Shown here one piece after another: positions 9,120-62,790 of a DNA stretch of 64,000 nucleotides (position 1 is its first letter; each line of letters starts with the position of its first letter). The notes beneath the pieces are model-generated. The model made no database searches, had not been told where the DNA came from, and was given only the letters and a program-made list of their open reading frames with translations. Source of the stretch: Pseudomonadota bacterium (GTDB lineage: Bacteria; Pseudomonadota; Alphaproteobacteria; Dongiales; Dongiaceae). The translations under genes were made by a program, and so were the position numbers. The stretch is taken from positions 1 to 64,000 of the forward strand of contig JAJYUT010000005.1 of NCBI GenBank assembly GCA_021792365.1. Direction: 5' to 3'.

Positions 9120-9446
9120 ATGACGGTCTATGTGATCGCGGACATCAAGGTGACGGACGTTTCGTGGATTCCGGAATACGCGCAGGCGGTCCTTGATATC
9201 GTGCACAAGCATGGCGGCAGATATCTCGCGCGCAGCGCCAACGTGAAGACGCTCGAGGGCAAGCCCCTGGACACCACGTTGATCGCGATCCTGCAGTTCC
9301 CGAGCGAGGAGGCGGTCCAGGCCTTCGCTTCGGACCCGGCCTACGCGCCCTATGCCAAGATGCGCAAGGAAGGCAGCGACAGCCGCTTCCAATTGGTCGA
9401 CGATACCGACGCGGCGGGAACGATCCCGTACCTGCGCAAGGGTTGA
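9120..9446 (+). CDS. DUF1330 family protein
   Basis: A 108-residue protein with the ferredoxin-like dimeric alpha/beta-barrel pattern of DUF1330: TVYVIADIKVTD at the start, then GGRYLARSANVKTLEG, and LIAILQFPSEEAVQAF with the family's aromatic/acidic pocket residues. The biochemical function of the family is not established. A GAGGAG sequence precedes ATG 9120. It is the last gene of the plus-strand run and ends facing the palindromic repeat at 9471. Confidence 0.85.
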   Translation: MTVYVIADIKVTDVSWIPEYAQAVLDIVHKHGGRYLARSANVKTLEGKPLDTTLIAILQFPSEEAVQAFASDPAYAPYAKMRKEGSDSRFQLVDDTDAAGTIPYLRKG

Positions 9447-9470: not shown

Positions 9471-9576
9471 TTCGTCATCCCAAGGCTTGGCCTTGGGATC
9501 CACGAGTTTGTCTGCACCGTTTCGGTCTCTCCCGGCAAAACTCGTGGATGGCAAGGCCAAGCCTTGCCATGACGAA
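9471..9576. repeat. long palindromic repeat element, cloverleaf-capable (copy 2)
   Basis: Outer arms TTCGTCAT (9471-9478) and ATGACGAA (9569-9576) pair. Central arms ATCCACGAGTTT (9498-9509) and AAACTCGTGGAT (9538-9549) enclose a 28-base spacer containing GTTTCGGTCTC. The left side arm CCCAAGG..CCTTGGG and the right side arm GGCAAGG..CCTTGCC each fold on themselves around CTTGG/CCAAG. A decayed extra half-unit follows at about 9584-9604. It sits between convergent genes. The central arms, spacer length and GTTTCGGTCTC core are shared with the copy at 62681. Confidence 0.9.
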
Positions 9577-9620
9577 GGTACGAAGGCCAAGTCTTGCCAT
9601 CACGGTTGGAGGCGGCGCGC

Positions 9621-10574
9621 TCAGACCTCGCTCAGCACCTTCGCGTATACATCGTTGTCTACATTGCCGCCGGACAGGATGAGCCCGACCTTGCCCGGCT
9701 TGCGCTGCTGGTCCTTCAGCGCGGCGGCGAGCGGCGTGGCGCCGGCGCCTTCCGCCGCATTGTGGGTATCGGCGAAATAGGCGCGCATGGCTGATCTGAT
9801 CTCGTCCTCGCCGACCCGAATGATGCGGGCCGCGCCGCGCCAGATGATGTCCAGTGCTTCCTGGACCGGGACACGGCAGGCCACGCCATCCGCGATCGTG
9901 TCGGCGCTATTGGTCGAGACGAGTTTTCCAGCCTCGAAGGAGAGGGCGTAGGCGGCCGCATTGTCCGACACCACGCCGACGATCTCGGCCTTGAGCCCGA
10001 GCGCGTCGCGCGCCTGGATGGTCGAGCAAATGCCCGATCCGAGGCCGATCGGAACATAGATGGTCACGAGATCCGGGACCGCCCGCATCAGCTCCCAGCC
10101 ATACGTCGCCACGCCATCAAGCAGCCAGGAATGGAACGAGCGCACGAAGTGCAGCTTGCGGCTCTCGGCGATCGCCTGGGTCGCCTCGTAGGTGGCCTGG
10201 AAGTCGTGCCCGGTCTCGATCAACTCCGCACCATAGGCGCGCATGGCCGCGTTCTTGGACCGGCTGTTGCCGTGCGGCACGGTGACCACGCAGGGCAGCC
10301 CGAACTGCCGCGCCGCAAAGGCGATGCTCTGGCCGTGATTGCCGCGGGTCGCGGCGATGACGCCGCGGATGTCCGGCTGCTCCTGCCGCAGCCGCGCGAC
10401 ATAGGTGAGGCCGCCGCGCACCTTGAAGGCGCCGGTCGGCAGGTGGTTCTCGTGCTTGACCCAGGTTTCGGTGCCCAGACGCTCCGAGAGCAGCGGCCAG
10501 CAGATTTGCGGGCTCGCGCCGATCGCCCCGTGCACCAGGCCGGCCGCAGCCTCGATCCGCTCTGCCGTTGCCAT
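9621..10574 (-). CDS. threonine/serine dehydratase-like PLP enzyme
   Basis: A 317-residue fold-type II PLP enzyme that by family deaminates threonine or serine to the 2-oxoacid and ammonia. The Schiff-base lysine is K51 in HLPTGAFKVRGG. The substrate loop ATRGNHGQS and the phosphate-cup segment IGLGSG (about 178-183) are present, and the C-terminal serine lies in LSGGNVD. It has no regulatory ACT domain, so it is the catabolic or racemase-like short form. The start at 10574 (MATAERIE) lies four bases after the Sel1 protein stop, indicating an operon. Serine racemase or hydroxyaspartate dehydratase activity is an alternative. Confidence 0.88.
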   Translation of the reverse strand: MATAERIEAAAGLVHGAIGASPQICWPLLSERLGTETWVKHENHLPTGAFKVRGGLTYVARLRQEQPDIRGVIAATRGNHGQSIAFAARQFGLPCVVTVPHGNSRSKNAAMRAYGAELIETGHDFQATYEATQAIAESRKLHFVRSFHSWLLDGVATYGWELMRAVPDLVTIYVPIGLGSGICSTIQARDALGLKAEIVGVVSDNAAAYALSFEAGKLVSTNSADTIADGVACRVPVQEALDIIWRGAARIIRVGEDEIRSAMRAYFADTHNAAEGAGATPLAAALKDQQRKPGKVGLILSGGNVDNDVYAKVLSEV

Positions 10575-62680: not shown

Positions 62681-62790
62681 CTTCCGTCATGGTCGTGCTC
62701 GGCACGACCATCCACGAGTTTGCCTGACGTGTTTCGGTCTCGCTCGGAGAAACTCGTGGATGGTCGGACCAAGCCCGACCATGACGAAGG
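62681..62790. repeat. long palindromic repeat element, cloverleaf-capable (copy 3)
   Basis: Outer arms CGTCAT (62685-62690) and ATGACG (62781-62786) pair. Central arms ATCCACGAGTTT (62710-62721) and AAACTCGTGGAT (62750-62761) enclose a 28-base spacer with GTTTCGGTCTC. The left side arm GGTCGTGC-TCG-GCACGACC and right arm GGTCGG-ACCAAGC-CCGACC are each self-complementary. It lies between the convergent secreted-protein gene and moaA. Confidence 0.9.

Follow-up and report, generated by a model that had tools for sequence, protein, structure and literature searches.

In the window, by which we mean the whole 64,000-nucleotide stretch of DNA analysed here, a palindromic element lies between two convergent genes, one for a DUF1330 protein and one for a pyridoxal-phosphate-dependent enzyme. 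The features of the locus, and of a second copy elsewhere in the window, are as follows.

9120 to 9446, plus strand: DUF1330 protein gene, its stop 26 nt ahead of the left tag
9471 to 9576, no strand assigned: whole element, a head-to-head heterodimer of two CGTC-tagged REP units with CCC and GGC stems
9473 to 9502, plus strand: left unit, with CGTC tag (9473-9476), 9-bp stem (9477-9485/9491-9499), loop CTTGG (9486-9490) and tail CCA (9500-9502), as read from the sequence and matched by a model with the same layout
9503 to 9544, no strand assigned: inner part, with conserved ends CGAGTTT and AAACTCG (9503-9509, 9538-9544) and a 28-nt spacer (9510-9537)
9545 to 9574, minus strand: right unit, with CGTC tag (9574-9571), 9-bp stem (9570-9562/9556-9548), loop (9561-9557) and tail (9547-9545), as read from the sequence
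9583 to 9604, minus strand: incomplete and degenerate third unit that follows the element closely, with 20 of 22 letters as in 9553-9574 (the right-arm end)
9621 to 10574, minus strand: gene for a pyridoxal-phosphate-dependent enzyme (PALP family), convergent, its end 46 nt past the right tag
62685 to 62786, no strand assigned: second window copy, with units GGTCGTG..CACGACC and GGTCGGG..TCCGACC and one G.T in the right unit

Palindrome architecture and family

The two 39-nt arms (9471-9509 and 9538-9576), 28 nt apart, are inverted copies at 35 of 39 positions (90% complementary), and all four mismatches fall in the CC/GG pairs of the side arms and are compensated within each arm, just as an earlier note on this DNA had described. 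Each arm reads CGTC, ATCCCAAGG or ATGGCAAGG, CTTGG, CCTTGGGAT or CCTTGCCAT and CCA, followed inward by CGAGTTT. Both the left side arm (ATCCCAAGG-CTTGG-CCTTGGGAT) and the right one, read on the minus strand (ATGGCAAGG-CTTGG-CCTTGCCAT), are fully self-complementary, each making a hairpin of its own. The window contains five matches to the pattern GTCAT..ATCCACG where 0.19 would be expected; four are the units of the two dimers, and the fifth is non-palindromic and lies inside a gene. No Rfam family matched in the window at gathering score.

The element has a predicted RNA folding energy of -63.6 kcal/mol, compared with -38.0 +/- 3.9 kcal/mol for 200 shuffled sequences. The three-armed fold proposed in the note, the clover, is predicted to lie about 4 kcal/mol above the long hairpin with RNA parameters (-55.6 against -60.0 kcal/mol, a gap of 4.4) and with DNA parameters (-35.3 against -39.6 kcal/mol, a gap of 4.3). 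Across 12 dimers of the same genome the clover minus long hairpin difference ranges from -0.8 to 24.6 kcal/mol (RNA), the widest gaps belonging to dimer L042 (24.6), which has a damaged right arm, and dimer L049 (11.0), the arms of which are without the CC/GG swap.

Judged by its predicted structure, the element is a member of the CGTC-3 class of CGTC-tagged REPs. In the parts of the 2013 survey that describe this class (Di Nocera, De Gregorio and Rocco, 2013; PMC3733652), its units carry a CGTC tag at one end that is unpaired in the unit, a 9-bp stem opening with A-T and T-A, a 5-nt loop and a CCA tail, all of which are present in both units here, and they form head-to-head dimers, predominantly heterodimers, in alphaproteobacteria. 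The same parts of the survey report CGTC-tagged REPs without an associated transposase gene, give no obvious explanation for the heterodimers and equate the Neisseria repeat dRS3 with CGTC-1 (PMC3733652). Unlike that description of CGTC-3, the units here show a tight association with a gene for a small GIY-YIG nuclease (see below); however, the absent transposase is an observation rather than a structural criterion of the class as presented there, and the assignment to CGTC-3 therefore stands. With REPINs, as far as the consulted portions of their description go (Bertels and Rainey; PMC3116915), the element shares an inverted REP doublet that can fold as a long hairpin with a clover alternative, both folds having been proposed already in the legend of Fig. 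S11, and a spacer conserved in length more than in sequence. The REPIN/RAYT system combines GTAG-type units with a tyrosine transposase in that account (PMC3116915), whereas the present one has CGTC units and a GIY-YIG nuclease and is without RAYT. Br-REP1 and Br-REP2 of Bradyrhizobium are likewise palindromic repeats in 3' regions of an alphaproteobacterium, but their consensus sequences, given in part as starting CCGGAATCTCGAG and CGAGATTCCGG, differ from the element here (PMC5082802).

Copies and covariation of the paired units

The window's own genome contains a few dozen copies of the element; a BLAST search of it gave 56 matches, many of them one copy in both orientations, and 40 of 53 first-look candidates were scored. 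Among 25 own dimers examined, 12 have at most three anchor mismatches per arm and make up the well-preserved set. The same CCC/GGC pair, in either orientation, occurs in 10 of these 12, and the covariation that the earlier note had singled out in this copy is thus not a new signal, the identical pair in ten dimers being most simply explained by one inherited event. The remaining two comprise a GGTCGTG/GGTCGGG dimer and one with equal 5' stems. Most intact own dimers have 28 bases of spacer separating their 37-base halves, a constant length with variable sequence (43% mean identity over 105 pairs). The arms of the own dimers (L031 to L054) are near-identical while their spacers are only about 43% identical, even though sister species lack some of the copies; homogenisation or selection must therefore act on the arms. 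In one own dimer (L048) extra bases split the left unit in the loop region.

Covariation at the level of the single unit, across the family, is borne out by both counts of Watson-Crick pairs and a score on aligned units. In 45 unique units near nuclease genes, picked by their fixed ends only, a mean of 6.56 of the seven inner pairs are Watson-Crick compared with 4.08 after shuffling, and all seven are intact in 33 of the 45. The covariation score of 35 aligned units, which were picked partly for pairing, is 0.769, compared with 0.191 when shuffled and at most 0.125 when slid. Where the left and right arms differ, the differing stem pairs are mostly Watson-Crick in both arms (27 of 31 in nuclease-flanking pairs, 21 of 26 in own dimers), indicating stronger conservation of the single unit than of the long hairpin. 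When stem cells that are not Watson-Crick are read on the CGTC strand, G.T outnumbers A.C in both length kinds of unit, by 12 to 2 in 87 long-kind units (p 0.013) and by 5 to 0 in 40 short-kind units (p 0.062), an excess suggesting that it is this strand which folds.

A small GIY-YIG nuclease gene between CGTC-type units

At one locus of the own genome, two units about 357 bases apart surround a small GIY-YIG gene. The genome has six GIY-YIG matches, four of them small genes, and three of these four lie, by eye, between inverted palindromes of CGTC, TGTC or GTCAC type; a strict rule flags both sides of one gene but only a single side of the second and no side of the third, owing to longer loops or a deletion in these two. 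Within this genome, the units that flank the nuclease differ from those of the dimers. The domain of the small nuclease is PF01541 (46.3 bits against a cut-off of 22.6). An identity as a group I intron endonuclease was rejected for one nuclease, as the NCBIfam match fell below its cut-off, and the lone PDB match of the nuclease search, a WD-40 chain, was not used as evidence.

With three own proteins as queries, a first survey took the best 80 of 586 confirmed loci in named genomes, picked by protein similarity and not by their flanks, and counted outward-facing units no more than 250 nt from the gene. Units were found on both sides at 47 of the 80 loci, on one side at 20 and on neither at 13; controls placed no closer than 700 bases to the gene, within these same loci, gave corresponding counts of 0, 14 and 845 of 859 positions. 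Up to 250 bp from the nuclease gene the unit density is 3.80 per kb, and farther out it is between 0 and 0.19 per kb. In a second set, made up of 29 additional loci from the genomes with a nuclease match described below, units were present on both sides at 11, on one side at 9 and on neither at 9, and the controls of this set gave 0, 3 and 51 of 54. None of 22 loci of a different small GIY-YIG family had any unit, with the qualification that three of them (L278, L280 and L281) are short and their assumed gene position may be off. Matching of upstream to downstream flanks had also been tried (62 of 80 observed pairs and 58 of 239 re-paired ones scored at least 14), and was replaced by distant positions in the same loci because the units are alike between loci, making re-pairing a poor control.

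At two loci, L138 (Bosea) and L146 (Bradyrhizobium STM 3809), both among the 13 missed by the rule, the nuclease is flanked by other inverted repeats of CGTCA or related type, that of L146 being CGTCATCGCGAGCG-like. Nucleases with CGTC-type units were also seen in Hanstruepera (a bacteroidete), an Elusimicrobiaceae MAG (on one side), Gallionellaceae and Magnetococcales (L144, L130, L143 and L148), occurrences that extend the pairing of nuclease and unit outside the alphaproteobacteria.

A search of 192 genomes of the class detected the nuclease in 60 and matches to the unit model in 72. At least ten units were present in 39 of the 60 genomes with the nuclease compared with 8 of the 132 without it, a difference for which the nominal p of 9e-18 overstates the certainty because the genomes are related, the unit model (R1) derives for the most part from nuclease loci and the top counts per genome are read as at least 38. 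Eleven of the 60 nuclease genomes had no unit at threshold. Mapped on the nuclease tree, the long or short length class of the units requires 10 changes compared with 24.1 when shuffled (none of 500 shuffles as low), a fit that might also arise through shared ancestry. In one genome of the class (G108) there are ten copies of the small GIY-YIG gene.

Orthologous sites and the proposed mode of spread

A stretch of the sister genome G001 (L176) falls within L071 of Dongia deserti, making the window's genome a congener of D. deserti by the grouping used. The ends of a nuclease element in G001 match the window arms at 93 to 95% identity across about 40 nt, and a nuclease element with like ends is present in G002; G003 (68% complete) has many dimers and a weak GIY-YIG match only. 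The window site is empty in G001, with 12 bp between the two neighbour genes; in G002 (L178, G002:C16:35600-37900) the DUF1330 and PALP genes are separated by two related genes for small secreted-like proteins, with no unit there; G003 has another neighbour and showed no unit either. For own dimers with both flanks found, and with a clear empty site defined by a gap under 50 and no unit, empty sites comprise L031, L034 and L040 in G001, L032 in G001 and G002, and L037 in G002, and filled sites comprise L032 in G003, L035 and L036 in both G001 and G002, L041 and L043 in G002, and L042 in G001; other comparisons are ambiguous. The own nuclease element L067 corresponds to a site with neither gene nor unit in G001 and to a different dimer, without a gene, in G002. 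Where the own genome has a second nuclease element, L065, the site in G002 is occupied by a head-to-head dimer (L287, G002:C9:36950-37600) whose units are similar but which lacks the gene. Intergenic DNA is too diverged between these relatives for target-site duplications, an insertion motif or boundaries to be mapped.

Together we read the window element as a non-autonomous, REPIN-like miniature element, the dimers of which are moved in trans by a relative of about 380 bp, in which units of the same kind flank one gene for a nuclease of about 95 aa with a single GIY-YIG domain, an interpretation to which we give a probability of roughly 70%. The association strongly suggests that the nuclease recognises the CGTC unit. 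It would do so on the tagged hairpin where single-stranded DNA is exposed, and, going by its GIY-YIG domain, would nick the DNA at that hairpin, whereupon dimers would be copied or moved in trans by the nuclease together with host repair; the pattern of presence and absence at orthologous sites is what points to such mobilisation. The 380-bp nuclease element would itself be autonomous. The CC/GG difference between arms may weaken the long hairpin and so keep a two-hairpin clover within reach. No GIY-YIG enzyme is known to join DNA, and insertion would consequently need host functions. Against mobilisation by the nuclease stand the loci without a unit under the flank rule (13 of 80 and 9 of 29), the 8 of 132 nuclease-less genomes with at least ten units and the 11 of 60 nuclease genomes lacking units at threshold. 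The many dimers of G003 beside its weak GIY-YIG match, the difference between nuclease-flanking and dimer units in the own genome, and the reliance of the unit model on nuclease loci also count against it. A wider version, in which the CGTC REP superfamily as a whole is mobilised by a single-domain GIY-YIG nuclease, with an autonomous element pared down to unit, 95-aa nuclease and unit (about 380 bp) and with 100-bp heterodimers derived from it, paralleling RAYT/REPIN with an unrelated enzyme and with arm heterogeneity keeping the clover accessible, is more tentative, and we rate it a little short of an even chance.

The nuclease might instead only target the repeats, for example by trimming single-stranded DNA at DNA uptake or replication, with the repeats spreading by ordinary recombination and descent. 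Association of nuclease and unit does not by itself demonstrate movement, and the Ssn enzymes of Neisseria, site-specific single-strand GIY-YIG nucleases with many homologues, are said (in a report of about 2025) to have such a role, cutting single-stranded DNA at a cognate genomic repeat; as so described, they share with the present system a single GIY-YIG domain and a cognate repeat. We nevertheless regard targeting alone as doubtful, given that both dimers and L067 are present or absent at orthologous sites and that the empty sites in G001 hold no unit. It is unlikely, too, that the nuclease gene is a homing-type passenger that invaded older, independent REP dimers: the gene does sit between the partners of a head-to-head pair, and the gene-less dimer L287 at the L065 site fits either gain or loss of a gene, but so few nuclease-less genomes are rich in units, and the L067 site in G001 lacks the unit as well as the gene.

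The genes on either side of 20 own dimers are convergent in 9 cases, tandem in 9 and divergent in 2, and most of these dimers have a stop codon within about 60 bases, positions near gene ends that fit either insertion there or a role in RNA. An RNA-level 3' element, acting as a bidirectional terminator or an mRNA stabiliser between convergent genes, would agree with this placement and with the strong RNA fold. We consider it quite unlikely in view of the absence of a terminator-like T-run site around the window element, the presence and absence of copies among sister species, and the tying of the G.T excess to the CGTC strand, though a dimer transcript carries one unit in each sense. That the element is a classic REPIN moved by a RAYT (Y1) transposase is scarcely credible despite the same inverted-doublet architecture in the REPIN descriptions consulted (PMC3116915), as the tag is CGTC and not GTAG, the own genome (called 100% complete) has no match to the RAYT domain Y1_Tnp, and among the 192 genomes at least ten units occur in 12 of the 43 with Y1_Tnp and 35 of the 149 without it (p 0.55).

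What is new here is the GIY-YIG nuclease as a partner of CGTC REP units. In the open-licence literature we found no report linking GIY-YIG proteins to REP, RAYT, REPIN or palindromic repeats. The reported work on Ssn may overlap with the nuclease-repeat link found here; if it already ties the enzyme to CGTC REPs, the architecture of the element, the derivation of the dimer from it and the comparison of sites would still be new. REP repeats are among the commonest short repeats of bacteria, and RAYT is the known enzyme of the GTAG class. For the CGTC class the enzyme was still missing in the 2013 survey (PMC3733652). The controlled association with the nuclease names a candidate enzyme for CGTC REPs and thereby a possible answer to how this family spreads, and, if the proposed mode of spread is true, would also offer a reason for heterodimers.
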